Shown: positions 29,802 to 46,138 of the stretch, one piece after another
Layout of the letters: every line of letters begins with the position of its first letter
Position numbering within the stretch: position 1 is the first letter of the stretch
From: Halomonas sp. LR3S48
Lineage (GTDB): Bacteria; Pseudomonadota; Gammaproteobacteria; Pseudomonadales; Halomonadaceae
Direction: 5' to 3'
NCBI RefSeq assembly: GCF_025725665.1
Contig: NZ_CP107009.1
Span: forward strand, 806,001 to 870,000
Length of the DNA stretch: 64,000 bases
Made by a program: the position numbers and the translations under genes
Notes under the pieces: model-generated
Told to the model about the DNA's origin: nothing
Seen by the model: only the letters and a program-made list of their open reading frames with translations
The model's database searches: none

Positions 29802-30581
29802 TTAGATTCCCGCCCACCATTCATAGCCGCGATCTTCCCAATAGCCGCCCCGGCCGCGGCCGAGGTGAGCGAAGCTCTCCACCAGTTCGACGCGCATCAC
29901 GTACTTGGCCATCTTGTAGCCGAGCTGGCGCTCGGCTCGCAGCCGCAGAGGGGCGCCGTTGGCGATGGGCAGATCGCTGCCGTTCAGGTCATAGGCCATC
30001 AGCGTTTGTGGATGGTAGGCCTCGATCATGTCCAGGCTTTCGTAGTAGGCGTCCCCACCGCGGTAGTGATCGGCACAGTGGAAGACCACAAAGCGCGCCT
30101 CGTCACGCACACCGACCTGGTCCAGCAGGTCACCGAGTACCACCCCGGTCCATTGGCCGATGCAGCTCCATCCCTCGACGCAGTCGTGGCGGGTGATTTG
30201 GGTGCGCGCGGGCAGGGCCTTGATGTCGTCGAGCGAGAAGCTTTGCGGACGCTCTACCAGACCGTCGATCGTCAGGCGCCAGTCGCGGAAGCCGTTGGCC
30301 GCCAGGCGTCGGTAGGCTGCGTCCTGAGGGTTGGTGGTGCCGTTGGCGCGAAAGGTCGGCGCGATGTCCTCGGCTGAGTATTCACGGGCGAGGGACTCGC
30401 GCGAGGCCAGCAGGCGCTGGGTTTTCTGCGTCAGGGCACTGCTGGCATCGAACAGCCGTCCCATGGTGTCGCTACGCGACAGCCGGTCGCAGCCCGTCAG
30501 CAGGACGGCGGACGCGGCCAGCAGCGAGCGGGTCAGAAAACGCCGGCGCCTAGGATCGGTGGGGCTATCTGTCCTGTTCAT
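29802..30581 (-). CDS. Tat-exported molybdopterin oxidoreductase, sulfite oxidase family
   Basis: 259 residues. RRRRFLTRSLL is a twin-arginine-type signal (second Arg-Arg at 13-14, FL following), and LLTGC (Cys31) is a possible lipobox, so a periplasmic, perhaps lipid-anchored, enzyme. The molybdenum-coordinating cysteine is Cys134 in RHDCVEGWSCIGQWTGVVL. Further conserved parts are VFHCAD, HPQTLMAYDLNGSDLPIANGAPLRL and YKMAKYVMRVEL. It is shorter than MsrP (YedY) and may reduce sulfoxides or another small oxyanion. Its start overlaps the end of the cytochrome b gene by 17 bases, so the two form one unit, with electrons presumably passed from the cytochrome. Confidence 0.87.
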   Translation of the reverse strand: MNRTDSPTDPRRRRFLTRSLLAASAVLLTGCDRLSRSDTMGRLFDASSALTQKTQRLLASRESLAREYSAEDIAPTFRANGTTNPQDAAYRRLAANGFRDWRLTIDGLVERPQSFSLDDIKALPARTQITRHDCVEGWSCIGQWTGVVLGDLLDQVGVRDEARFVVFHCADHYRGGDAYYESLDMIEAYHPQTLMAYDLNGSDLPIANGAPLRLRAERQLGYKMAKYVMRVELVESFAHLGRGRGGYWEDRGYEWWAGI

Positions 30582-31446
30582 CGGGGTGAGCCTCCTCGTT
30601 CGAGGGCAGGGCCGGGGGTAAGCGATAGCGCCCGGTGATCATCGAGCGCAAGTTGTTGGCGACGCCGGAGACCAGCACCAGTGCGATATGGAGCAGGAAG
30701 AAACCCACCAGCGCCAGGGCGCAGAGGAAATGGATCGTGCGTGCGCTCTGGCGGCCGCCGAAGATATCCAGCAGCCAGGGCCAGGCGGCATCCATGGTCG
30801 GTGACATGGTCAAGCCGGTCAGCACGACCAGCGGCATGACGACGAACAGCACCAGCAGATAGGCGAGCTTCTGCAGCAGGTTGTAGTGGTGTGCTTCCTC
30901 ACCCCGCGGAAAGCGCAGCCGCAGGTGCTCGGTCACGACATGGCCGAAGGTTCGCCACTCCTGTCGGCGCGGCAGCAGGCGACGGCGCAATTGGCCACTG
31001 ATGACCAGATACATCAGGTAGGCAATCAGCATGGGAGCGAATAGCCAGCCGGCCAGGAAGTGCCACTGGCGACCTGCGGACAGCCAGCGCGGGCCGGGCA
31101 GGGTGATCCAGGCTGGAAAGGCGCGTCGCTCACGCGCATCAGGGGGACCGGAGACGCCCAGCACTCCGGTGGTATCGAGGCGGTAGGCGCCGATCTGGGT
31201 GATGCCGTGCCACTCGCCGTCGTTATCACTGACGGCGAGAATCGACAGTGCCGGGCTGTCGAAACTGGAATCCTTGCCCCAGTACAGGGCCGGATGGGCG
31301 TTGAAGATCTGCAGGCCACTCATCAACAACACCAACAGACAGGCGGCATTTATCCAATGCCAGATCCGGGTGAAGGCGCCGTGTCGATGGATGACCGTTG
31401 GGGGTCGGTCCCTGTTCGTGCCAAACATCGCGTCGAAGACACGCAT
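30565..31446 (-). CDS. Membrane cytochrome b (b561/formate dehydrogenase-gamma type)
   Basis: 293 residues with about four to five membrane helices. Haem-ligand histidines are expected in RIWHWINAACLLVLLMSGL, HFLAGWLFAPMLIAYLMYL, and HFLCALALVGFFLLHIALVL. A soluble loop with an ALYWGKDSSF segment faces the periplasm. It would pass quinol electrons to the molybdoenzyme encoded directly downstream with an overlapping start. Start 31446 is preceded by AGGAGGG, better than the in-frame upstream start at 31554. The methionine-rich peptide gene lies about 90 bases upstream on the same strand. Confidence 0.88.
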   Translation of the reverse strand: MRVFDAMFGTNRDRPPTVIHRHGAFTRIWHWINAACLLVLLMSGLQIFNAHPALYWGKDSSFDSPALSILAVSDNDGEWHGITQIGAYRLDTTGVLGVSGPPDARERRAFPAWITLPGPRWLSAGRQWHFLAGWLFAPMLIAYLMYLVISGQLRRRLLPRRQEWRTFGHVVTEHLRLRFPRGEEAHHYNLLQKLAYLLVLFVVMPLVVLTGLTMSPTMDAAWPWLLDIFGGRQSARTIHFLCALALVGFFLLHIALVLVSGVANNLRSMITGRYRLPPALPSNEEAHPDEQDR

Positions 31447-31537
31447 CGTGGACCCTCCTGAAAGTGAAGAGCGAGACAAGGTCGGCCGGTGACTGGAAAG
31501 TAAAGACGGGACACCGGCCGATGCCGCGAGCCGAACT

Positions 31538-31846
31538 TCACATGGCGTCGTCATCCGACATCATGTCGTCCTCTTCCTCCATCATGTGATCGTCCTCCTC
31601 CATCATTGGGTCTTCTTCCATCATCGCCCCATCGCCATGCATGGCATCTTCTTCCATCATCGTGCCTTTCTCTTTCATGGCGTCACTGTCCATGGCATCA
31701 CTGCCCATTTCATCGCCGGTCATGGTCTCGTGTTCCATGCTGTCGTTTTCCATGGGCTCGTCGGCCAGAGCGGCGGTCGGCAGCAGCAGTGCCGTGGCGA
31801 GCAGGGTGGCAAACAGCGCGGTCTTGGGACGGTTCGACACGTTCAT
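31538..31846 (-). CDS. Exported methionine-rich acidic peptide (MXKDX-like repeat protein)
   Basis: 102 residues. A clear signal peptide (NRPKTALFATLLATALLLPTAALA) precedes a mature part of about 74 residues composed almost only of Met, Asp, Glu, Ser, Gly and His: 18 methionines, nearly one in four, in repeats such as DAM, MMEED and MMEEDD. No fold is expected. Such Met-rich periplasmic peptides can act as sacrificial oxidant sinks or bind copper/silver; the acidic repeats would also bind cations. It resembles proteins annotated as pentapeptide MXKDX repeat. It is upstream of the cytochrome b and molybdoenzyme genes on the same strand, and divergent from the two-component genes. The start at 31846 is chosen because it begins the signal peptide. 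Confidence 0.8.
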   Translation of the reverse strand: MNVSNRPKTALFATLLATALLLPTAALADEPMENDSMEHETMTGDEMGSDAMDSDAMKEKGTMMEEDAMHGDGAMMEEDPMMEEDDHMMEEEDDMMSDDDAM

Positions 31847-35174: not shown

Positions 35175-35465
35175 TCATACGCCTTCCAGAATGATAATGT
35201 CCACTTCGGCAGCACCCTCCCGCGCAGACTTGGCCTTCCGATACTCCTCGGAGTGATAGCAATCGAGCGCCTGCTGGTAACTGGGAAACTCGATGATCAC
35301 GCTCCGCTGAGGAGTGTCGCGCCCCTCCATGGCGGTACATTGGCCCCCACGAGCAAGAAACCTGGCACCGAAGCGAGCGAAGGCCTCCGGGGCCAGGGCC
35401 TGGTAGTGGGCGTAATGGTGGGGATGAATCACGGTGACATTGGCGATCCAGTAGCCTTTGGGCAT
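35175..35465 (-). CDS. DUF1330 protein of the catabolic cluster
   Basis: 96 residues, a dimeric alpha+beta-barrel (ferredoxin-like) fold typical of DUF1330: MPKGYWIANVTVIHPHHYAHYQALAPEAF, ARFLARGGQ, IIEFPSYQQALDCYHSEEY. Such proteins resemble EthD/antibiotic-monooxygenase-type barrels and often accompany degradation genes; a catalytic role is not established. GGAGGA precedes the ATG at 35465. The palindromic GntR-type operator is 29 bases upstream and is shared with the divergent RibB-type gene. A second DUF1330 gene is at 51999. Confidence 0.85.
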   Translation of the reverse strand: MPKGYWIANVTVIHPHHYAHYQALAPEAFARFGARFLARGGQCTAMEGRDTPQRSVIIEFPSYQQALDCYHSEEYRKAKSAREGAAEVDIIILEGV

Positions 35466-35495
35466 GACGTCCTCCGCTGGGTAGTGACTGTTTGT

Positions 35496-35513
35496 ATTAT
35501 GGTATGCCAAAAT
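35496..35513. promoter_or_regulatory. GntR-type operator, copy 1
   Basis: ATTATGGTATGCCAAAAT, a palindrome around TGGYATRCCA, between the divergent DUF1330 gene and the RibB-type gene. Seventeen bases (GTATTATGGTATGCCAA) are identical to copy 2 at 41959-41975. Confidence 0.75.
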
Positions 35514-35581
35514 GATGACGAGTCCTATGCTCGCCACCTATGACCTACCAATCAATACCTACCAAGTGGACCGGAACCGTT

Positions 35582-36703
35582 ATGGCATTCGATCGAGTCG
35601 AAGACATCATCGAGGATATCCATCAGGGGCGCATGGTCATCCTGCTCGACGATGAGGATCGTGAGAACGAGGGGGATCTCGTCATGGCCGCCGGCCACGT
35701 CACCCCTGATGCCATCAATTTCATGGCGACGCATGCCCGCGGTCTGATCTGCCTGACGCTGAGTGGCGCACGCTGCGACCAGTTGGGGCTGGCGCCCATG
35801 GTCGAGAACAACGGTTCCGGTTTCGCCACTGCCTTTACGGTTTCCATCGAGGCACGCGAGGGTGTGACCACCGGCATCTCCGCGGCGGACCGGGCGACCA
35901 CGGTGAAGGCGGCGGTGGCACCGAGCGCCCAGCCCCGAGATCTGGTTCAACCCGGTCATGTCTTTCCGTTGCGTGCTCACGACGGTGGCGTGCTGAGCCG
36001 TGCCGGCCACACCGAGGCCGGATGCGATCTGGCGCGCCTGGCCGGGCTGGAACCGGCGGCAGTGATCGTCGAGATCATGAATGATGACGGCAGCATGGCG
36101 CGGCGTCCCGAACTGGAGGCCTTTGCGCGACGACACGGATTGCGCATCGGCACCATCGCCGACCTCATCCAGTATCGCCTGGCCACCGAGAAGACGGTGC
36201 TGCCGACGGGGCAGGAACCCCTGCAGACCGTACATGGTGAGTTCGCCCTGCATACCTACGAAGACACCATCAGCGGTGAGGCGCATCTGGCACTGACCAT
36301 GGGCGAGATGGAGGCCGACAGGCCGACATTGGTGCGGGTGCATGTGATGGATCCGCTACGCGACCTGGTGGGGGCCGAGTATCAGGGCCCCCGGGCGTGG
36401 TCGTTGTGGTCGTCCCTGGAAGCGGTGGCAGCGGAGCGCCATGGCGTGGTGGTGATACTTGCCAGCCACGAATCGCCGCAGAGCCTTTTGTCACGGGCCA
36501 CCCGGCTCAACAAGCCGCCGAGTGACAGCCCCTCTCCCCGGCACTACTCCTCCACGGGGACCGGCTCGCAGATTCTCGCCGATCTTGGTGTCGGCAAGCT
36601 GCGGCTCATGGGTGCTCCCTTGAACTACAAGGGCCTGGCGGGCTTCGAGTTGGAAGTGGTGGAGATCGTCTCGCCGCCCCTGTCGGGAGGCGCTAGCGCA
36701 TGA
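35582..36703 (+). CDS. RibB with degenerate GTP cyclohydrolase II-like domain (RibBX-type)
   Basis: 373 residues. The first ~200 are a complete 3,4-dihydroxy-2-butanone-4-phosphate synthase: DDEDRENEGDL acidic motif, GLICLTLSGARC, GVTTGISAADRATT, GHVFPLRAHDGGVLSRAGHTEA. The remaining ~170 have the outline of GTP cyclohydrolase II but lack the zinc cysteines (the region reads VRVHVMDPLRDLVGAEYQGPRAW), so only the first activity is expected. It provides the four-carbon unit of riboflavin. An extra copy inside a cluster with a flavin-dependent monooxygenase and flavin reductase fits an added flavin demand. Start at 35582 is by family alignment; 35540 is an in-frame alternative. The GntR-type operator lies ~70 bases upstream; no FMN riboswitch is present. 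Confidence 0.9.
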   Translation: MAFDRVEDIIEDIHQGRMVILLDDEDRENEGDLVMAAGHVTPDAINFMATHARGLICLTLSGARCDQLGLAPMVENNGSGFATAFTVSIEAREGVTTGISAADRATTVKAAVAPSAQPRDLVQPGHVFPLRAHDGGVLSRAGHTEAGCDLARLAGLEPAAVIVEIMNDDGSMARRPELEAFARRHGLRIGTIADLIQYRLATEKTVLPTGQEPLQTVHGEFALHTYEDTISGEAHLALTMGEMEADRPTLVRVHVMDPLRDLVGAEYQGPRAWSLWSSLEAVAAERHGVVVILASHESPQSLLSRATRLNKPPSDSPSPRHYSSTGTGSQILADLGVGKLRLMGAPLNYKGLAGFELEVVEIVSPPLSGGASA

Positions 36704-37250
36704 AGTGTATGGCGCCGCTTTCCATACTGCCGCTGTAGATACCGTAGACACCACCGGCTTGCTCGTCGATATAGCGCTCCAGGATCTGGCGAATGGCAGG
36801 GTAGAAGATCTCTTCCCAGGGAATCTCTTCCGGGTGGAACCACTTCACATCCAGTGTCTCGTGACCTGGAGAGGTACGCCATTCCTGCAGACGTGCCCGG
36901 TAGATGATATAGAGTTCGTTGGTTGTCGGAACGCTGAAGATCGAGTAGGGGGTCAGTATCTCGGCCTGGATCCCGGTTTCCTCCATCACTTCGCGTTGTG
37001 CAGCTTCCTCGACACTTTCCCCCCGCTCCATGAAGCCTGCCGGCAGGGTCCAGGTGCCCACACGCGGCGGGATGCCGCGCTGACATAGCAACAGGCGCCC
37101 TTCGCGTTCAATGATGGCTCCGGCAATCACCTTTGGATTGTCATAAGAGACAAAGCCACAGGCACCGCAGTAGAGACGTTCATGGGTATCGTCTTCGGGG
37201 ATACCGCGGGCAAGGGGATGGTGACCGCAACGGCAGCAATAGAGGTGCAT
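36693..37250 (-). CDS. NUDIX hydrolase with N-terminal zinc ribbon
   Basis: 185 residues. An N-terminal four-cysteine ribbon (CCRCGH, CGACGF) is followed by a NUDIX domain with the box GFMERGESVEEAAQREVMEETG, complete in its Glu residues. The family hydrolyses nucleoside diphosphate-linked compounds (ADP-ribose, NADH, FAD). Being the last gene of the minus-strand catabolic operon, nine bases after the GntR gene, it might act on a flavin or pyridine dinucleotide of the pathway; that is inference. Its last 11 bases overlap the 3' end of the convergent RibB-type gene. Confidence 0.88.
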   Translation of the reverse strand: MHLYCCRCGHHPLARGIPEDDTHERLYCGACGFVSYDNPKVIAGAIIEREGRLLLCQRGIPPRVGTWTLPAGFMERGESVEEAAQREVMEETGIQAEILTPYSIFSVPTTNELYIIYRARLQEWRTSPGHETLDVKWFHPEEIPWEEIFYPAIRQILERYIDEQAGGVYGIYSGSMESGAIHFMR

Positions 37251-37259
37251 GGTGCCTCG

Positions 37260-37997
37260 CTACAAATGAGGAGCTACGCGCAGAGGCGGTGTGATCGGTT
37301 CCGGTGACTGGCCACTCTTGGCCGCCAGAACCGCCAGGGCGACCTTGGCGGCCGCCTGGATGTGCGCTACGCATGCTTCGTGAGCGGCGACTGGATCCCG
37401 TGCTTTGATCGCTTCCACGATGCGTGTCATTTCACGGAAGCTGTCGAGGGAACGCTCCTTCTGGGATACCGAGGTCGCCCGCAGGTAGTTGACGCGTGCC
37501 TGCAGTTGGCTGAGGATCTGGCCGGCGATACGGTTGCCCGCACCTTCGTAGAGCACGCCATAGAAGTCGCTGACAGCCTCGACGATCTCGTTGGTATCGC
37601 CTTCGCGAAGCGTTTCCTTGAGGATCTCCCAGGCGTGCTCCAGTTCCGCCATCTGGCGACGAGTGGCCTTCTGGGTAAACAGCTGCACCACTGTGCTTTC
37701 CAGCATACAGCGCAGTTCGTAGATATCGCGAGCGTCCTCCAGCGTGATCACGGCGACGCGCGGCCCACGGGTACCAGAATGCTCCACCAGACCCTCGGCC
37801 TCGAGCTGGCGCAAGGCCTCGCGCACCGAGGTGCGACTGACTCCCAGGCGTTCGCATAGATCGCGTTCCACCAGACGGTCGCCAGGCAGCAACTGGAAGG
37901 TCATGATGGCCTGACGAAGCTTGTCGACCACGATCTCGCGGAGGGTGGGCTGATTTCGCGTGACCCTGAGGCTGTCATCCCGTAGCGCTCTTCGCAT
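37260..37997 (-). CDS. GntR-family (FadR/FCD) transcriptional regulator
   Basis: 245 residues. Winged helix at ~15-80 (KLRQAIMTFQLLPGDRLVERDLCERLGVSRTSVREALRQLEAEGLV) and an all-helical FCD ligand-binding domain, in which DIYELRCMLES, FYGVLYEGAGN and HEACVAHIQAA provide the usual Asp/His metal or acid-binding positions. It is inside the operon it likely controls. FCD regulators commonly bind palindromes of the TGGYATRCCA kind, and three such sites lie before the cluster's promoters; it is probably a repressor relieved by a pathway metabolite. AGGAGA precedes the ATG. Confidence 0.93.
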   Translation of the reverse strand: MRRALRDDSLRVTRNQPTLREIVVDKLRQAIMTFQLLPGDRLVERDLCERLGVSRTSVREALRQLEAEGLVEHSGTRGPRVAVITLEDARDIYELRCMLESTVVQLFTQKATRRQMAELEHAWEILKETLREGDTNEIVEAVSDFYGVLYEGAGNRIAGQILSQLQARVNYLRATSVSQKERSLDSFREMTRIVEAIKARDPVAAHEACVAHIQAAAKVALAVLAAKSGQSPEPITPPLRVAPHL

Positions 37998-38045
37998 CGT
38001 TACATCTCCTGTTCCAGAGAGTCGCGCTATTGCCGGACTCCCAGG

Positions 38046-38438
38046 CTATAGCTCGCCCATTTCGCTCAATACCTCACGAGCGTTACGGAAGGCATCGATG
38101 GCCGCCGGCACCCCGCAGTAGACCGCCGTTTGCAGCAGAATCTCGCGGATCTCTTCAACGCTGAGACCGTTGTTGATCGCTCCGCGGACGTGCAGGCGCA
38201 GTTCGTGAGGGCGGTTCAGGGCGGTGATCATGGCCAAGTTTATCACGCTACGATCGCGGTCACTGAGTCCTTGGCGCTGCCACACTTCACCCCAGCAGTA
38301 CTCGGTGACCAACTGCTGCAGTGGCCGAGTGAAATCGTCGGCATTGCGTATCGACTGGTCGACATACTCGGCGCCGAGTACACGGCGTCGTTTCTCCAGA
38401 CCCTTCTCGAAACGTTCTTGAGACTGTTCTTGAGACAT
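38046..38438 (-). CDS. Carboxymuconolactone decarboxylase-family protein
   Basis: 130 residues, all helical. LVTEYCWGEVWQRQGLSDRDRSVINLAMITALNRPHELRLHVRGAINNGLSVEEIREILLQ is the classical PcaC-like core, and YCGVPAAIDAFRNAREVL completes it. It lacks the CxxC of AhpD-type peroxidases (a single Cys at the WGEV motif), so it is likely a lactone/acid decarboxylase or a hydrolase on a ring-cleavage product. It sits between the GntR and flavin reductase genes of the minus operon. No other beta-ketoadipate genes are near, so its substrate is probably not carboxymuconolactone. Confidence 0.88.
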   Translation of the reverse strand: MSQEQSQERFEKGLEKRRRVLGAEYVDQSIRNADDFTRPLQQLVTEYCWGEVWQRQGLSDRDRSVINLAMITALNRPHELRLHVRGAINNGLSVEEIREILLQTAVYCGVPAAIDAFRNAREVLSEMGEL

Positions 38439-38461
38439 AGGGGAAATACCTCGCGATTGTT

Positions 38462-38968
38462 TCAGGCTGGCGCCGTTGTAAAGCGGAAGGTTTCGGGCAA
38501 CTTGTCCATCTTTCCCCGACAGTACAGGAGAGGGTCGAGATCCTCGTCACCGAGCCATAATGTCTGTACCTCTCCCACGACGATGGCGTGATCGCCACCT
38601 GGGTAATCTTGCCACAGCCGGCATTCCAGGTAGGCCGTGGCGCCGTCAAGAATGGCGTTGCCATGTTCGGAGCGATGCCAGGCGACTCCCTCGACCTTGT
38701 CCCGTCCCTTGCCGGCGAAACGGTAGGCGACGGCCTGCTGGTCATGGCCGAGAATGTGCACGGCAAAACGGCCAGTTCGCTTGATGACGGGATAGGAGTC
38801 GGATCCCAGACTGGGGCAGATCAGGATCAAGGGAGGGGCCATGGAAACCGCCGAGAAGGCGCTGGCGGTGAACCCTACCAAGCTGCCATCTTCGTCGAGG
38901 GCCGTAACGATGGTGACCCCGGTCGGGAAGGCGCCGAGAACTTGCTTGTAATGTTGGGTATCGATCAT
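38462..38968 (-). CDS. Flavin reductase of a two-component monooxygenase
   Basis: 168 residues of the HpaC/FRP-like flavin reductase family: AFPTGVTIVTA, GFTASAFSAVSMAPPLILICPS (flavin-binding), FAVHILGHDQQAVAYRFAGK, and the closing HAIVVGEVQ with PLLYCRGKMDKL. It reduces FMN or FAD with NAD(P)H and supplies it to the luciferase-like oxygenase encoded at 43864. Start 38968 has CGGAGC upstream and matches family length. Lies 14 bases after the aldehyde dehydrogenase gene in the operon. Confidence 0.9.
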   Translation of the reverse strand: MIDTQHYKQVLGAFPTGVTIVTALDEDGSLVGFTASAFSAVSMAPPLILICPSLGSDSYPVIKRTGRFAVHILGHDQQAVAYRFAGKGRDKVEGVAWHRSEHGNAILDGATAYLECRLWQDYPGGDHAIVVGEVQTLWLGDEDLDPLLYCRGKMDKLPETFRFTTAPA

Positions 38969-38982
38969 GGTTCGCTCCGTAC

Positions 38983-40461
38983 TCAACGCATGATAAAGGG
39001 ATCGGGCATGGGCTGGGTGGACAAGTTGATCCACAGGGTCTTGAGTTCGGTGTAATCGTGTACGGCATTGATACCGCCCTCGCGACCGTAGCCGCTGGCA
39101 CCGAAGCCGCCGATCGGTGCCATGGCGGAGACGGCGCGATAGGTGTTGACCCACAGGATGCCGGCGCGAATGTCGCGGCTCAGGCGATGAGCGCGTCCGA
39201 CATCCTGGGTCCAGATACCGGCGGCCAAACCGAACTGGCTGTCATTGGCCAATTTCAGCGCTTCGGCCTCGTCATCGAAGGGAATGGCCGCTACCACTGG
39301 ACCGAACACTTCTTCCTGCATGATGGGCATGTCGTGCGCCGTGCAGGCCAGGATCGTTGGGGTGTAATACCAACCTTCCGCAGTGTCGGGGCGCATGCCG
39401 CCGTAGATCAGTTGCGCGCCATCGGCTTGCGCCTGGGCGACCATGCGCTCGACGGTCTCGAGTTGGGCCTGAGTGGCCATGGGTCCCATTTCGGTCTCGG
39501 CATCCGAGGGGTCGCCGATGCGGATGGTTCGCGCCCGCTCGCGAAGGCGCTCGATCACCTCGTCATAGATGCTGCGCTGAACCAGCAGGCGCGATCCCGC
39601 CACACAACTCTGCCCGGAGGCGGCAAACACCCCGGCCACTACGCCATTGATGGCACTGTCCAGATCGGCATCTTCGAACAGGATATTGGGCGATTTGCCA
39701 CCCAACTCCAGCGACAGCTTGGCAAAGTTCTCGGCGCTACTGCGAACGACGTGGCGGGCTGCATTTGCGCCGCCGGTAAAGGCGATCTTGCGCACCAATG
39801 GGTGGCTGGTGAGCGCCGCTCCCGAGGTTGGACCGAAGCCGGTGACCAGATTAACCACGCCGGGGGGGAAGCCGGCCTGTTCGACCAGGCGCATCAGCAT
39901 GATCAGGCTAGCCGAGGCATGCTCCGAGGGCTTGATGACCACGGTGTTGCCGGCCGCCAGCGCCGGGGCGAGCTTGATGGCAGTCAGATACAGCGGACTG
40001 TTCCATGGCACGATAGCGGCCACCACGCCGAGCGGAACCCGCACGGTGGCACCGAACATGTCCGCCTTGTCCAGCGGCAGGGTTTCGCCGCCGACCTTGT
40101 CCGCCAGGCCGGCGTTGTAAAAGAAGAACTCGGGAAGGTAGCCGACCTGGCCGCGCGTTTCGCGAATCAGCTTGCCGTTATCGCGGCTCTCCAACTGGGC
40201 GAGTTCCTCGCCATGTTCGGCAATCAGCTCGCCGAGCCGGTACAGCAGCTTGCCACGCGTGGTGGCCGTCAGTCCGGCCCAGGGCGAGGTCTCGAAGGCA
40301 CGCTGTGCGGCCCGTACGGCGGCATCGACATCGTCGATGCCGGCATCCGGCACGCGACACCAGGCCTGGCCGGTCGCAGGGTTGTAACTGTCGAAGGTGG
40401 TGCCGGTACGAGCAGCGACCCATTCTCCATCGATGTACATGGATAGCGTATCAAGACTCAT
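38983..40461 (-). CDS. Aldehyde dehydrogenase
   Basis: 492 residues, NAD(P)-dependent. Catalytic Cys286 (FAASGQSCVAGSR) and Glu252 (LELGGKSPN) are intact, as are PWNSPLYL, GNTVVIKPSE and FTGGANAARHV in place of the usual GSTxxG motif. The sequence is of the broad betaine/aromatic/semialdehyde type. In the cluster it should oxidise the aldehyde released on ring opening (or succinate semialdehyde). AAGGAGG precedes the ATG; its start overlaps the alpha/beta hydrolase stop by four bases. Confidence 0.93.
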   Translation of the reverse strand: MSLDTLSMYIDGEWVAARTGTTFDSYNPATGQAWCRVPDAGIDDVDAAVRAAQRAFETSPWAGLTATTRGKLLYRLGELIAEHGEELAQLESRDNGKLIRETRGQVGYLPEFFFYNAGLADKVGGETLPLDKADMFGATVRVPLGVVAAIVPWNSPLYLTAIKLAPALAAGNTVVIKPSEHASASLIMLMRLVEQAGFPPGVVNLVTGFGPTSGAALTSHPLVRKIAFTGGANAARHVVRSSAENFAKLSLELGGKSPNILFEDADLDSAINGVVAGVFAASGQSCVAGSRLLVQRSIYDEVIERLRERARTIRIGDPSDAETEMGPMATQAQLETVERMVAQAQADGAQLIYGGMRPDTAEGWYYTPTILACTAHDMPIMQEEVFGPVVAAIPFDDEAEALKLANDSQFGLAAGIWTQDVGRAHRLSRDIRAGILWVNTYRAVSAMAPIGGFGASGYGREGGINAVHDYTELKTLWINLSTQPMPDPFIMR

Positions 40462-41288
40462 TGGAATGCCTCCTTGGATGGGGCGTGGGCCAATGCCTTG
40501 GCAAGAAAACGCAGCAGCACGGCGTTGACGGCTTCATGATCCTCCATCGGCACCATATGCCGCTGACCGGGGAAGATATGTACCTCGGCATTGGGGAGGT
40601 GTTCTGCCAGGGCGCGCGCCATGCGAGGCGTGGATCCCGGATCCAGCTCACCGGTGGCGACCAGGGCCGGCACACGGATCGTCTGCAGACGCTCGGTACC
40701 GAAGCGGTCCTCGCTACCGAACAGGGCATAGCTGCGGTAATACCCTTGGGGATGGTTGCGGCTGACGATCTCATGGATCTCGGCGATCCGTTCGGGATGG
40801 GCCCGATGGAAGGCCGGGCTGAACCAGCGCTTCAATGCCGCGCCGACATTGGCTGCGGGACCCCGTTCTCGGGTCTGGGCCAGGCGTTGACGGACCCCTG
40901 AGCGCTCGTTCGCGTCACGATCGAAGACGCTGGACAGTACCACCATTGCAGCCAGGCGTTCGGAGTGGCGCAGGGCAAAAGCACGCGCCACCAGTCCGCC
41001 CATCGAGAAGCCCACCACGGCAACACGCTCGAGTCCCAGGTGGTCGAGCAGTGTCGCCAATTGGTCCGCGTAGTCATTCAACTCGGCATTTTCCCGAGGC
41101 AGGGCACTGCCTCCATGTCCGAGCATGTCGTAGACGATGACCTCATGGCGTTGTGCCAATGCCTCGACTTGCCACTGCCACATGGTGGCATCGAGGCCCA
41201 CGCCATGGATGAGGATGACTGGTGAGCCCTGGCCCTGGCGCCAGAAACGGGTGCCATCGGGCGTCTTGCGCGCCTTGGTGAGCTCCAT
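40458..41288 (-). CDS. Alpha/beta-fold hydrolase
   Basis: 276 residues. Nucleophile Ser95 in VVGFSMGGLV, oxyanion HGVGLD, acid Asp in GELDPGSTP, and catalytic His244 in PGQRHMVP. It resembles PcaD/meta-cleavage-type hydrolases that act on esters, lactones or amides. In this cluster it may hydrolyse the amide, enamide or lactone formed after ring opening. GAGGAGG lies before the start at 41288; the longer in-frame opening is not coding in style. It overlaps the aldehyde dehydrogenase by four bases. Confidence 0.9.
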   Translation of the reverse strand: MELTKARKTPDGTRFWRQGQGSPVILIHGVGLDATMWQWQVEALAQRHEVIVYDMLGHGGSALPRENAELNDYADQLATLLDHLGLERVAVVGFSMGGLVARAFALRHSERLAAMVVLSSVFDRDANERSGVRQRLAQTRERGPAANVGAALKRWFSPAFHRAHPERIAEIHEIVSRNHPQGYYRSYALFGSEDRFGTERLQTIRVPALVATGELDPGSTPRMARALAEHLPNAEVHIFPGQRHMVPMEDHEAVNAVLLRFLAKALAHAPSKEAFQ

Positions 41289-41304
41289 GCTGCCTCCTCG
41301 ATGC

Positions 41305-41907
41305 TCAGTCGTTGGTGCCGGCCTGCTCGGCCTCGTCGGCCAGCTCTTGCAGGTCCTGATAGCGGTTGCCGATACGCGGGTGCAGGCGACCGCCATCGGC
41401 GGCAGCCAGGGCGACGACGATCTCGTCATGGCGTGGAGCGTCTTCGATGCGCATTTCCAGGGTGACGTAGTGCGAGCGGAAGCCCTCGTCATGCTTGTGC
41501 ATCATGGGGATCTGGATTGAGCTGCCCGGCCCGCCACGCTTGTTGGTGAAGCTCAGGTAGCTCTTGGCACCCACGGCATCGCGATAGTGGTTGCCGAAGC
41601 GCAGGGTGTGAATGATGGCCGAGGCGTGTTCGATCTCACCATCGGCGCCGACCACCGCTGCCTTGCCATACGCCTCAATGGAATCGCCATCGATCTCCTT
41701 CAGTACCCGCTCGACGAGCTGCTGGCCGAGCGCAGAGCAGCCACTGCGGATTTCCGGAGCCAAGTCTTCGACAAAGCCACGGCCATGCCAGGGGTTGGCG
41801 ATCACCGCTGCCACGCCAAGCATGGTCACGGGGCGCTCTCCTCGCTTGCCACCCTCGATGTAGGTCGTCTCGCGGTAGGTCGCTATCTTGCGAATCTCAA
41901 AGCCCAT
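41305..41907 (-). CDS. Amino_acid_synth (DUF1185) family protein
   Basis: 200 residues beginning MGFEIRKIATYRETTYIEGG. The layout (AVIANPWHGRGFVEDLAPEI, SIEAYGKAAVVGADGEIEHASAIIHTLRFGNHYRDAVGAKSYLSFTNKRGGPGSSIQIPMMHK) is that of the family labelled amino acid synthesis protein, whose biochemistry is unclear. Conserved polar patches (HGRGF, KRGGPGSS, HKHDEG) suggest an enzyme. It is the promoter-proximal gene of the minus operon, 51 bases from the operator, so it is probably important to the pathway. CGGAGA precedes the ATG. Confidence 0.8.
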   Translation of the reverse strand: MGFEIRKIATYRETTYIEGGKRGERPVTMLGVAAVIANPWHGRGFVEDLAPEIRSGCSALGQQLVERVLKEIDGDSIEAYGKAAVVGADGEIEHASAIIHTLRFGNHYRDAVGAKSYLSFTNKRGGPGSSIQIPMMHKHDEGFRSHYVTLEMRIEDAPRHDEIVVALAAADGGRLHPRIGNRYQDLQELADEAEQAGTND

Positions 41908-41956
41908 CGTCGTCTCCGTTGTTCTGCCCCGTTCAGGTGGCGCACTGCCTCAGGTA

Positions 41957-41974
41957 TCTTGGCATACCATAATA
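41957..41974. promoter_or_regulatory. GntR-type operator, copy 2
   Basis: On the minus strand ATTATGGTATGCCAAGAT, 50 bases upstream of the DUF1185 start, oriented like copy 3 towards its gene. It differs from copy 1 at a single position. Confidence 0.75.
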
Positions 41975-42132
41975 CGTAAATCAAAAACTGACAAACGAAT
42001 GCCCTGACGTAAAGCCATCAGGGCAATGGGGTTGCTTATGATGAATCTAGGTAGATTGCTGAAATATAAAGGTTATAGTGATTGTTTTGTGAAGGGTGAA
42101 GGATCGGTGTGGAATAAGTGCTTGCGAATTGT

Positions 42133-42150
42133 ATTATGGCATACCAAAAT
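42133..42150. promoter_or_regulatory. GntR-type operator, copy 3
   Basis: ATTATGGCATACCAAAAT, 110 bases upstream of the BCCT start. Compared with copy 1 the centre changes from GGTATGCC to GGCATACC, i.e. compensating Y/R swaps that keep the TGGYATRCCA symmetry. Confidence 0.75.
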
Positions 42151-42259
42151 ATTTCCGAGCCGTTGCAGCCCTTGGGTGCGTGGCTCGATGCGTCGCTAGG
42201 CTCATATGCCCTTCAGGCATGGCCACAACTACAAGACAACCTATAGGGAGAGACTCCCC

Positions 42260-43840
42260 ATGCCAGACTCTCGACAGGCCACCCCAAGGCGCGGTGTGTT
42301 TGCCGGCGTGGACAGGACCATGGCGATCGCTTCGACAGCGATGGTGGTCGCCTTCGTCCTCTTCACCGTGCTGCAGCCTGCGCTGGCCAACAGCATTTAT
42401 CAGGGCGTGAAGCAGTTCATCGAACAGGAGCTCGGCTGGTATTACATCCTGACGGTGAATGTGGTGCTGATCGTCACCATCGGGATCATTTTCAGCCCCT
42501 ATGGCAAGCTACGCCTGGGGAACGATGATGAGCGTCCCGAGTTCTCCAACTTCACCTGGTTCGCGATGTTGTTCAGCGCAGCAGTGGGGACAGGGCTGCT
42601 GTTCTGGAGCATCGCCGAGCCCCTGAGTCACTTGCAGGGAAACCCGTTCATCGCCATGAGCGGCGTAGAGCCCTACTCGATGGAAGCGGCCCAGACGGCC
42701 CTTAGCATCACTATCTTCCACTGGGGGCTGCACGGCTGGGCGATCTATATTTTGGTCGGCGCCATCCTGGCCTATTTCGCCTATCGCAAAGGGCTGCCGC
42801 TGACCATCCGCTCGGCGTTCTACCCTGTGCTTGGTGAGCGCATTCACGGGCCGATCGGCCATGCCATCGACCTGCTGGCGATCTTCGCCACCCTGTTCGG
42901 TACCGCCACCACCCTGGGGCTCGGGGTCTCGCAGATGAATGCGGGGCTGAATAGCCTGTTCGGCATGGAAATCAGCAGCACCAATCAGGTCCTGCTGGTG
43001 CTGGGCGTCACCGTGATGGCGACCGTATCGGCGGTGTCGGGGCTCAAGAAAGGCATTCGGCTGCTCAGTGAATGGAACATCTATCTCAGCATGATCCTCT
43101 TCGCTTTCTTCGTTCTGGCCGGACCGACCATTTTCCTGCTAGCTACCTTCACCACTAGCCTGGGAGATTACTTGAGCAATGTCGTCGCCATGGGCTTCTG
43201 GACGAATTCTGATCCCGAAAGCCAGTGGCAGGGCTGGTGGACGCTATTCTACTGGGGCTGGTGGCTCTCCTGGGGTCCGTATGTCGGTATTTTCATCGCT
43301 CGCATATCGCGTGGACGCACCCTTCGTGAAGTACTGCTCGGTGGCATGTTGGCCGCCACCCTGGGCGCCGGGGTCTGGATCGTCATCTTCGGTGGCACGG
43401 CGCTGCACCTGCAGCTGTTTGGTGGTGTCGACCTGGCTGCGGTAGCCAACACGGACGTGACGAAGGTGCTGTTCGAGACCATTGCCGCCTTGGACGTGCC
43501 GTGGGCCACCACCTTCATGATCGGCATGGCGACGGTGATGATCGTTACCTGGTTCGTGACGTCCGCCGACTCGGGCACGCTGGTCATCTGCACCATTCTG
43601 GCCAAGGGCAACCCGCATCCCCCGCAGCTCTACCGTGTGATCTGGGGCTTGGGCCTCGGGGCCACTTCCGCCGTACTGCTGCTGGCTGGTGGCCTGGAGG
43701 CACTGCAAACGGCTGCCATTGCTGCGGCGTTTCCCTTCTCGCTGGCCTTGCTGATCATGGCGTACTGCATGATCAAGGCGCTGAGCGAAGAGGGACGCGA
43801 AGGCGAGCTGGTCACAAGAAAACGGACCGAGGCGTCCTAA
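42260..43840 (+). CDS. BCCT-family betaine/choline/carnitine-type carrier
   Basis: 526 residues with twelve membrane helices. The family's tryptophan-rich segment is present (GWWTLFYWGWWLSWGPYVGIFIARISRGRT), as are GVEPYSMEAAQTALSITIFHWGLHGW and TSADSGTLV. BCCT carriers import quaternary ammonium compounds (betaines, choline, carnitine, DMSP) by sodium or proton symport, or act as antiporters. The short polar N- and C-termini give no sign of an osmosensory tail, so it looks like a catabolic rather than an osmoregulated carrier. AGGGAGAG precedes the ATG at 42260. It heads a unit with the monooxygenase gene 23 bases downstream. Confidence 0.94.
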   Translation: MPDSRQATPRRGVFAGVDRTMAIASTAMVVAFVLFTVLQPALANSIYQGVKQFIEQELGWYYILTVNVVLIVTIGIIFSPYGKLRLGNDDERPEFSNFTWFAMLFSAAVGTGLLFWSIAEPLSHLQGNPFIAMSGVEPYSMEAAQTALSITIFHWGLHGWAIYILVGAILAYFAYRKGLPLTIRSAFYPVLGERIHGPIGHAIDLLAIFATLFGTATTLGLGVSQMNAGLNSLFGMEISSTNQVLLVLGVTVMATVSAVSGLKKGIRLLSEWNIYLSMILFAFFVLAGPTIFLLATFTTSLGDYLSNVVAMGFWTNSDPESQWQGWWTLFYWGWWLSWGPYVGIFIARISRGRTLREVLLGGMLAATLGAGVWIVIFGGTALHLQLFGGVDLAAVANTDVTKVLFETIAALDVPWATTFMIGMATVMIVTWFVTSADSGTLVICTILAKGNPHPPQLYRVIWGLGLGATSAVLLLAGGLEALQTAAIAAAFPFSLALLIMAYCMIKALSEEGREGELVTRKRTEAS

Positions 43841-43863
43841 CGACATTCGTCAGGAGAATCGAG

Positions 43864-44907
43864 ATGCAGTTTTCCCTCTTTCTGCATATGGAACGCTACC
43901 ACGAGCATGAGAGTCACCGGCAGCTGTTCGCGGAACTCTGCGAGTTGGTGAGGATCGCCGAGGCAGGAGGCTTCCGCACTGCCTGGATCGGCGAGCACCA
44001 TGGCATGCAATTCACTTCGTCACCGAGCCCGACCGCTCAACTGGCGTATCTTGCCGCCAAGACCGAACGTATCCGCCTTGGGGCGGGTACCTTCGTGGCG
44101 CCGTTCTGGGATCCGATCCGACTGGCGGGTGAAGCCGCCATGCTCGATGTGATCAGTGACGGCCGGCTCGAGTTCGGCATCGCCCGCGGAGCCTACCAGT
44201 TTGAGTTCGACCGCCTTGCCGATGGCATGTCGGCGGCGGATGGTGGCCAGGCACTGCGCGAGATGGTGCCGGCAATTCGTAGCCTGTGGCAGGGCGACTA
44301 TGCTCACCAGGGCGATGTATATCGTTTCCCTGTCACGACCAGCGTCCCCAAGCCGCTCCAGGCCACATTGCCGCCGATATGGATCGCCGCTCGCGATCCT
44401 AACTCTCACGACTTTGCGGTCAAGAACGGCTGCAATGTCATGGTGACGGCCTTGATGAAAGGCGATGAGGAAGTGGCGGACCTGGCGCACAAGTTCGATG
44501 CCGCTTGTGCCAACCATCCCGATATGCCGCGCCCCGATTTGATGCTGCTGCGCCACACTTTCGTGCATGAAGAAAGCGACCCGGAGGGCTGGCGAAAAGG
44601 TGCCGAAGCTCTCAACCTCTTCTATCGCTACTTCCTGGCCTGGTTCAAGAACGACCAGCAGGCGGTCGATGGGTTCTTCGAGCCTGTGCCTGAGGAAGCC
44701 GTGGCTGATAATCCAGAGTTCGCGTTGGAAAGCTTGCGTCGCAACATGATGATCGGCACGCCTGGTGAGCTGGTCGATCGGCTCAAGAACTATGAGCGGC
44801 TGGGTATCACGGAGTATAGCTTCTGGACCGACAATACGTTGCCCTTCAACGAGAAGAAGCGTTCGCTCGAGCTGTTCATCAATGAGGTCATGCCGCACTT
44901 TCGTTGA
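43864..44907 (+). CDS. Luciferase-like (LLM class) flavin monooxygenase
   Basis: 347 residues with a TIM-barrel of the bacterial luciferase family: MQFSLFLHMERY, FRTAWIGEHHG, SPSPTAQLAYLAAKTERIRLGAGTFVAPFWDPIRLAGEAAMLDVISDGRLEFGIARG, PLPPIWIAA-type PPIWIAARDP. It inserts oxygen using reduced FMN supplied by the reductase encoded at 38462. In known pathways such pairs open N-heterocycles (for example pyridine or trigonelline) or cleave C-S/C-N bonds. Co-located with a BCCT carrier this favours a betaine-like substrate. AGGAG precedes the ATG. The natural substrate cannot be decided from sequence. Confidence 0.9.
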   Translation: MQFSLFLHMERYHEHESHRQLFAELCELVRIAEAGGFRTAWIGEHHGMQFTSSPSPTAQLAYLAAKTERIRLGAGTFVAPFWDPIRLAGEAAMLDVISDGRLEFGIARGAYQFEFDRLADGMSAADGGQALREMVPAIRSLWQGDYAHQGDVYRFPVTTSVPKPLQATLPPIWIAARDPNSHDFAVKNGCNVMVTALMKGDEEVADLAHKFDAACANHPDMPRPDLMLLRHTFVHEESDPEGWRKGAEALNLFYRYFLAWFKNDQQAVDGFFEPVPEEAVADNPEFALESLRRNMMIGTPGELVDRLKNYERLGITEYSFWTDNTLPFNEKKRSLELFINEVMPHFR

Positions 44908-45010
44908 TCGTGAGTGACGAAAACCTGACCATGGGACCGCTGGTCAGCGAGCGCGGCACGGGAGGTGGGCTCAGAGTGCCTGTTCGTTGGCCTGCATGAT
45001 GCGTGTGTTC

Positions 45011-45078
45011 AGGCTATGTTGTACGCTCGCGATCCGTTATTGAAAAAAACGGCAATGAGACTTGCGTAAATGAACAGG
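45011..45078 (+). repeat. Right copy of the diverged flanking sequence
   Basis: AGGCTATGTTGTACG to TTGCGTAAATGAACAGG, in the same orientation as the copy at 35065-35133 and of nearly equal length. Here the ATG AAC AGG is followed by CCG TAA, so it does not begin a gene. The two copies bracket the catabolic cluster. Confidence 0.5.
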
Positions 45079-45097
45079 CCGTAAGTGAGGGCATTTC

Positions 45098-46138
45098 ATG
45101 AAAGCCGTGGTGTATGAGGCCTTTTCCGCTCCGCCGCAAATCAGGCAGGTTCCCGACCCGACGCCGGAAGCGCATGGCGTCGTCGTCAAGGTGATGGCAA
45201 CGGGAGTGTGCCGCAGCGACTGGCACGGCTGGATGGGGCACGACCCCGACATTGCGCTTCCCCATGTCCCTGGACACGAACTGGCGGGAATCGTCGAGGC
45301 TGTCGGCAAGGACGTGCAGAAATGGCGCGTCGGGGATCGTGTCACGGTGCCGTTCGTCGGTGGCTGCGGCACCTGCCCCGAGTGCTACTCGGGGAATCAC
45401 CAGGTCTGCGATAGCCAATTCCAACCCGGCTTCACCCACTGGGGCTCCTTTGCCCAGTATGTGGCGATCCATCAGGCGGACATCAATCTGGTGGCCTTGC
45501 CGGAGACGCTGGACTTCGCCACGGCGGCCAGCCTGGGATGCCGTTTCGTGACGTCGTTTCGCGCCGTGGTCGACCAGGGCAAGACATCCGCGGGGCAGTG
45601 GGTGGCGGTCCACGGCTGTGGTGGCGTTGGCCTGTCCGCGATCATGATCGCCAATGCGGTGGGCGCCAATGTCGTGGCCATCGATATTTCCCAGGAAAAG
45701 CTCCGGTTGGCTCGCGAGCTGGGTGCTATTGCCACCGTAAACGCAGCCGAGGTGGCGAACGTCCCCGAGGCTGTCATCGAAGTGACGCGCGGTGGTGCCC
45801 ACGTGTCGCTGGATGCGTTGGGGCACCCCATCACCTGTTTCAACTCGATCAGCAATTTGCGCAAGCGCGGCAAGCACGTACAGGTCGGGCTCATGCTGGC
45901 CGAGAACAGTACGCCTGCCATTCCGATGAGCAAGGTCATTGCCCATGAACTCGAGATACTGGGCAGCCACGGCATGCAGGCCTATCGCTACGGCGCCATG
46001 CTCGACATGGTCCAGACCGGGAAGCTGACGCCCGAGAAGCTGGTTGGTCAGAGGATCAACCTGGAACAGTCGATCGAGGCGCTGATGGCCATGGATAGAT
46101 TCCAGGGCGTGGGCGTGACCGTGGTGACCGAATTCTGA
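45098..46138 (+). CDS. Zinc-dependent alcohol dehydrogenase
   Basis: 346 residues of the MDR superfamily. Catalytic zinc ligands Cys38 (TGVCRSDWH) and His60/Glu61 (VPGHELAG); structural zinc cysteines 90, 93, 96 and 104 ([17 protein letters not shown]). NAD site [13 protein letters not shown] near 172. It resembles alcohol dehydrogenases of the AdhP/YahK-like broad group. It lies just outside the operator-bounded cluster, without a GntR-type palindrome upstream, so it may or may not belong to the pathway. A LysR gene follows 39 bases later on the same strand. Confidence 0.92.

Follow-up and report, generated by a model that had tools for sequence, protein, structure and literature searches.

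Which compound do the eleven genes at positions 35175–44907 of a 64,000-nucleotide stretch of Halomonas sp. LR3S48 serve to degrade, and is the route a new one? The stretch, hereafter the window, covers bases 806001–870000 of one 4,689,245-base contig. The original prediction saw in these genes a system in which flavin-dependent enzymes open the ring of an N-methylpyridinium-type betaine, with trigonelline among the candidates, and the sequence comparisons described here support this. All eleven genes are open, and family profile searches confirmed the families named for them. Most probably the cluster is a trigonelline-type catabolic regulon in which a BCCT carrier takes the place of an NCS1 permease. 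It is probably not an undescribed route; relative to the known trigonelline (tgn) clusters it would be a variant that differs in its carrier, in the form of its reductase and in the loss of a succinate semialdehyde dehydrogenase (SSADH)-like gene.

The link to trigonelline was found in an Acinetobacter baumannii record listed as a 4.09 Mb plasmid, which holds the best Acinetobacter match to the LLM monooxygenase of the window among plasmid records (H19, 54.3% identity). The relevant stretch of this record, L120, is unannotated and its open frames were read directly. Its LLM is 93–94% identical to three proteins (P0121–P0123) with the NCBI name flavin-dependent trigonelline monooxygenase oxygenase component. 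Among the best 120 of 4684 matches to the window LLM, the name flavin-dependent trigonelline monooxygenase, oxygenase component, is given to P0087 (64%) and P0102 (63%), and a truncated name of this kind to P0079 (65%); all three names were assigned by similarity. L120 encodes DUF1330, GntR, DUF1185, a hydrolase, a reductase, the LLM, an aldehyde dehydrogenase, an NCS1 permease, a porin-like and an insertion sequence (IS)-like frame (both labels being a reading of the sequence alone), an SSADH-like aldehyde dehydrogenase and a carboxymuconolactone-decarboxylase-like (CMD) protein.

The PcaC-like CMD protein of the window (38046–38438, minus strand; PF02627) is 65.6% identical to that of L120. 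Identity is 55.7% for the TgnF-like DUF1185 protein (41305–41907, minus; PF06684, E 8e-67), 54.7% for the TgnC-like aldehyde dehydrogenase (38983–40461, minus) compared with the enzyme adjoining TgnB in L120, and 34% when it is compared with the SSADH-like enzyme there. The TgnB-family LLM flavin-dependent monooxygenase (43864–44907, plus, start at 43864) follows with 54.3% and the DUF1330 protein of 96 residues (35175–35465, minus; PF07045, E 1.5e-34) with about 46–47%. Values are 37% for the TgnR-like GntR/FCD regulator (37260–37997, minus; PF07729, PF00392), 35% for the short-form flavin reductase in the putative TgnA role (38462–38971, minus; PF01613, E 9.9e-46) and 32% for the alpha/beta hydrolase with a predicted amide or enol hydrolase role (40458–41291, minus; PF00561). 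In searches of the LR3S48 genome the L120 hydrolase nevertheless matches the cluster hydrolase best (E 1.1e-32 versus 3.6e-14 for the next match), the L120 CMD matches the cluster CMD best, and the cluster reductase is the only match of the L120 reductase. The alpha/beta hydrolase gene is placed between those for DUF1185 and aldehyde dehydrogenase, as in Pseudomonas and actinobacterial loci. A TgnB-family LLM, a partner reductase, a TgnC-like aldehyde dehydrogenase, a hydrolase, DUF1185 and a regulator with an operator-like site are thus all present, which suggests membership among the tgn clusters. An SSADH gene is absent from the cluster, but this is a variable and not a defining feature, absent also in 4 of 11 loci from halophiles. 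DUF1185 and CMD had been thought to fit no known trigonelline pathway, so that the route might be new. Since both occur in L120, we reject this reading; moreover, the DUF1185 homologue is TgnF according to the available part of PMC7913881.

The chemical steps proposed here are those of the tgn pathway of A. baylyi ADP1, which Perchat et al. reportedly described in 2018. The BCCT carrier (42206–43840, plus; PF02028, E 1.8e-181) would import the trigonelline zwitterion, and the N-methylpyridinium ring would be opened by the LLM oxygenase, to which the reductase supplies reduced flavin. The aldehyde dehydrogenase would oxidise the resulting semialdehyde or hydroxylactone, and the alpha/beta hydrolase may cleave N-methylformamido-methylene succinate to methylamine, formate and an acid of the formylsuccinate type. 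This acid would then be decarboxylated, a step for which the CMD protein is proposed, to succinate semialdehyde, and a dehydrogenase whose gene lies outside the cluster would convert the latter to succinate. Flavin would be supplied by RibBX and perhaps also by the NUDIX protein, and the GntR/FCD protein presumably controls all units via a single palindrome. Gene content, homology, co-conservation and a common operator-like site are the observations from which we infer the substrate, the carrier specificity and each of these steps.

The operator-like site is a 16-base palindrome found once in each promoter region of the cluster, namely between DUF1330 and RibBX (35497–35512, no mismatch to TTATGGYATRCCAARA), before the minus-strand operon (41957–41972) and before the BCCT and LLM genes (42134–42149), the latter two identified by pattern matches in the window and the genome. 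Presumably it is bound by the GntR/FCD protein. The three window sites served to define the motif, which was afterwards searched for in the other loci; slightly different patterns were used for the window (TTATGGYATRCCAARA), the genome (TWTGGYATRCCAWRA) and the loci (TTATGGYATRCCAWAA). When up to one mismatch was allowed across the 4.69 Mb genome, all three places without mismatch were in the cluster and four other places had one mismatch; the reversed control pattern occurred at 0 places. Shuffling the window with dinucleotides kept gave a mean of 0.64 and a largest value of 4, compared with six rows observed for the three places. A perfect GGTATACC palindrome was also tried and is absent from the window, the real site being TGGYATRCCA.

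Since DUF1330 and RibBX are divergent, the three transcription units named in the original prediction hold as three promoter regions but strictly count as four units. RibBX (35540–36703, plus; RibB fused to a GTP-cyclohydrolase-II-like domain; PF00926, E 1.5e-86, and PF00925, E 1.5e-30) has the operator in common with the cluster and hence the flavin supply belongs to the regulon, in agreement with the earlier idea that the cluster boosts its own flavin. The NUDIX hydrolase has a Zn-ribbon N-terminus (36693–37250, minus; PF00293, E 2.9e-23; PF14803). Beside the actinobacterial cluster on an Arthrobacter plasmid (L121, 3881–4830) riboflavin kinase and NUDIX genes were observed, a second link to flavin supply.

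The palindrome recurs in related loci. With up to three mismatches it precedes DUF1185 and BCCT in 11/11 halophile loci each and RibBX in all nine where this region is present. With up to two mismatches, a site is present in all 72 of 72 non-actinobacterial (proteobacterial) loci, of which 69 have two or more and 52 have three or more; the control, in which bases were shuffled in 200-base blocks without keeping dinucleotides, gave 0.014 sites per locus. The sites across the loci number 202, some of which may lie outside promoters. In L120 one site lies before DUF1185 (9620, one mismatch) and one before the SSADH-CMD unit (18453, no mismatch); L122 and L124 have one palindrome each and L123 has three at two mismatches. 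Sites with two mismatches were also seen near ABC-transporter-like frames in two Pseudomonas-type loci (L067, 2972; L093, 5149), and these frames may belong to the regulon.

Relatives were drawn from the best 80 named of 466 loci, and the sample therefore leans to close relatives; within it, the nearest named relatives of the window LLM are from Halomonas alkalisoli and Billgrantia pellis (95%). No LLM closer than 31% was found in 36 genomes called the same genus, which indicates a patchy distribution. When 369 genomes were drawn evenly from the class, that of the window included, seven had an LLM match with E 1e-90 or better, one each. In the eleven halophile loci (L040–L050) LLM, reductase, aldehyde dehydrogenase, hydrolase, DUF1185, GntR, NUDIX and BCCT are found throughout, CMD and RibBX in ten each and DUF1330 in nine; the sequence available for L043 and L045 begins inside RibBX. 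This co-occurrence argues that the grouping is not due to chance. The 61 Pseudomonas-type loci, which include one Pantoea and one Paucimonas bin, contain LLM (61), reductase (59), NCS1 (52), NUDIX (47), GntR (46), DUF1185, aldehyde dehydrogenase, hydrolase and CMD (42 each), RibBX (13) and BCCT (0). In 19 of them DUF1185 falls outside the available sequence, and several of these end at a contig end or have the other genes at the edge; the 42 with DUF1185 in the available sequence have reductase and hydrolase in all cases and aldehyde dehydrogenase, CMD, GntR and NUDIX in 40 each. All eight actinobacterial loci have DUF1185, aldehyde dehydrogenase, hydrolase, reductase and GntR (the latter two at about 30% identity), and seven have a BCCT carrier at 37–39%. 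In a Mesorhizobium plasmid cluster (L124, 8208–9995) the hydrolase is fused to a flavin reductase in a protein of 595 residues.

Window-type and Acinetobacter-type LLMs are 49–56% identical. For a comparison of columns 119 window-type and 116 Acinetobacter-type sequences were used, 2 of 121 and 4 of 120 having been dropped for length. Among the 347 positions, 104 have one and the same invariant residue (97%) in the two types, and seven are invariant but different: F22Y, E33D, I70V, A74T, F115Y, D116E and M193Q (window numbering). In the tree, built after removal of an outgroup row (L013) because of its length, the Acinetobacter type forms a separate branch with a support of 99/100, in a set that includes L011, a row with a long branch; the rows of the window type form an unresolved fan and no clade. 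Therefore, we claim two LLM types and not two sister clades. All 46 window-type genomes searched have exactly one TgnB-family LLM each and none of them has both types; Acinetobacter-type genomes were not searched for the other type. One LLM per genome would fit a single role that is filled by either type.

These differences might be taken to mean that clusters with a window-type LLM degrade another N-methylpyridinium betaine, such as homarine, N-methylisonicotinate or a similar compound, with the same gene kit. The separate, supported Acinetobacter branch, the identity between the types with the seven type-specific columns, the BCCT carrier instead of NCS1 in 11/11 halophile loci and the separate branch of actinobacterial cluster BCCTs (with long-branch warnings) all agree with this. 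Yet the operator, the regulator family, DUF1185 and CMD are the same as in L120, and 52 of the 61 Pseudomonas-type loci, whose LLMs are of the window type (about 66% identity), have an NCS1 permease that shares 56–59% identity with the L120 permease, which ties window-type LLMs to the Acinetobacter substrate. We therefore regard another betaine as rather unlikely. Homarine, formerly a fair candidate, is disfavored in particular, since the accessible part of PMC8269262 argues that ring opening by TgnA/TgnB would be sterically hindered and reports poorer growth of Ruegeria pomeroyi on homarine than on trigonelline; in a correction to that paper, as far as it is accessible, the homarine standard is described as contaminated. 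In the portions of open PubMed Central texts available to us no published homarine-breakdown gene set for comparison was found.

A neutral pyridine as substrate, with the betaine carrier being incidental, is very improbable. Clusters for pyridine ring opening likewise consist of LLM plus reductase, aldehyde dehydrogenase and amide hydrolase, but BCCT stands directly before LLM under the common operator in each of the eleven halophile loci and is present in seven of the eight actinobacterial ones. Least probable of all is a fragment of the protocatechuate branch with CMD as PcaC and the hydrolase as PcaD. The CMD score does pass the PcaC equivalog cut-off of TIGR02425 (157.1 versus 155.7 bits), and the hydrolase reaches 181.2 against TIGR02427. 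This latter value, however, falls short of the 255.85 required for PcaD, the window CMD is 65.6% identical to the CMD of a trigonelline-type locus, and a second CMD exists elsewhere, so that the PcaC/PcaD reading is disfavored. At 4251229–4252377 of the genome a CMD match (4251229–4251564) and a hydrolase match (4252207–4252377) are in frame, each in a 412-residue open frame, which suggests a fused PcaDC, perhaps the real one of this genome.

Several observations weigh against the assignment to trigonelline. M193 versus Q is a non-conservative exchange among the type-specific LLM residues, and a separate Acinetobacter-type branch next to unresolved window-type rows makes a functional split possible. 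Hydrolase and reductase have the low identities to L120 given above, the reductase with 169 residues versus 310, and the comparison was made with L120 as a proxy for A. baylyi. The transporters differ, BCCT here and NCS1 in Acinetobacter and Pseudomonas, and the SSADH gene is gone from the window cluster. Furthermore, CMD, NUDIX and RibBX are missing in 8/8 actinobacterial loci, which also lack the palindrome (0/8 with up to two mismatches), and the genome has no match over the curated cut-off to TIGR03105 (glutamine synthetase type III), which was tried as an indicator of methylamine use.

The BCCT carrier aligns best with the trimethylamine transporter 8zw8 (E 3.2e-124), its best solved relative, and then with other BCCT carriers. 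It retains the tryptophan-rich stretches HWGLHGWAIY and YWGWWLSW, which we take to line the ammonium box in BetP. In a tree of 21 rows the branch closest to it, apart from those of the halophile clusters, is a Leisingera BCCT annotated beside carnitine 3-dehydrogenase, and hence a carrier of the carnitine type may have been adapted to trigonelline. The actinobacterial cluster BCCTs are on a branch of their own, with long-branch warnings; a single branch uniting them with those of halophiles is not supported by the tree.

DUF1185 (PF06684) is present in a single copy in the genome. Crystal structures of two members, BB2672 and SPO0826, revealed a chorismate-mutase-like fold and no function, according to the part of PMC2954203 available. 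For the homologue TgnF, which belongs to the trigonelline pathway of A. baylyi, the available part of PMC7913881 reports that it stimulates the oxidation of succinate semialdehyde by TgnE; no such effect was demonstrable by the authors for HcdD.

For the CMD protein we propose the new role of a formylsuccinate decarboxylase. We know of no 2-formylsuccinate decarboxylation in the PcaC family. All eight actinobacterial loci (L056, L083, L086, L095, L100, L103, L106, L112) and L121, the Arthrobacter plasmid, encode a small tautomerase with Pro1 between aldehyde dehydrogenase and LLM, and no other was found among the 91 loci examined. Malonate semialdehyde decarboxylase belongs to the tautomerase fold, and thus this tautomerase would replace CMD in actinobacteria. 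Tentatively, then, CMD may be a dedicated 2-formylsuccinate decarboxylase whose job the tautomerase does in actinobacteria, with BCCT having been acquired independently in halophiles and in actinobacteria, although we rather doubt this combination. Neither CMD nor tautomerase is present in the stretches examined of Leisingera L122 and Mesorhizobium L124, and CMD was not found in Salinicola L050, which counts against such a decarboxylase; the CO2 loss may be spontaneous or due to the hydrolase or DUF1185. If true, the proposal would fill an unexplained step of trigonelline breakdown and provide the first trigonelline-specific BCCT. Automatic naming would label the CMD protein PcaC, and caution is needed here.

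Downstream of the LLM gene a scar of a deleted SSADH-like gene remains (44916–44967, plus; 88.9% over a 54-column alignment to L040 12077–12130, E 1.2e-14). L040 and L041 have an SSADH-like gene, 55–56% identical to that of L120, between LLM and alcohol dehydrogenase. Comparison of window positions 44908–45097 with L040 11051–12702 reveals that most of this gene was deleted, leaving about 52 bp; the scar match falls inside the L040 gene (11084–12568) and the far-flank match resumes from 44970. Other SSADH-like genes exist elsewhere in the genome, two of them 57% identical to that of L120, and consequently the final step need not be lost. The alcohol dehydrogenase at 45098–46138 was rejected as a member of the system, since only two of the eleven halophile loci have it, at more than 90% identity, after the LLM region. 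Further away, at 29802–31554, two minus-strand open frames resemble, by eye, molybdopterin oxidoreductase and cytochrome b.

In open PubMed Central texts, most subscription papers being outside the search, we found no description of this cluster in halophiles, of a trigonelline BCCT or of a TgnR operator; the accessible parts of PMC10138511, PMC12093977, PMC12650772 and PMC12482172 contain nothing on trigonelline breakdown genes. The cluster would extend the trigonelline-type regulon to halophiles. A single operator-like site connects the carrier with the ring-opening enzymes and the flavin supply, and it can be used to find further clusters of this type and to test what DUF1185 and CMD do.

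Compared with the Acinetobacter tgn cluster, for which L120 serves as proxy, the window shares LLM, flavin reductase, TgnC-like aldehyde dehydrogenase, alpha/beta hydrolase, DUF1185, CMD, DUF1330, GntR and the operator-like palindrome. It differs in having BCCT and not NCS1, a 169-residue reductase, no SSADH-like gene left, the addition of RibBX and NUDIX, and an LLM that is 54% identical and located on another branch. In the halophile loci (Halomonas, Billgrantia, Litchfieldella, Modicisalibacter, Marinobacter and Salinicola) the gene order is as in the window, including the position of BCCT directly before LLM, but seven of the eleven retain an SSADH-like gene directly after LLM where the window keeps the scar only. 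Pseudomonas-type loci (L053, L057, L062 and others) resemble the window in their LLM (64–67%), whereas they have NCS1 in place of BCCT and, in many cases, a second flavin reductase. The 7-hydroxycoumarin locus of Pseudomonas mandelii, as described in the available part of PMC7913881, also has a DUF1185 protein (HcdD) in an aromatic-catabolism operon, but this operon belongs to another pathway.

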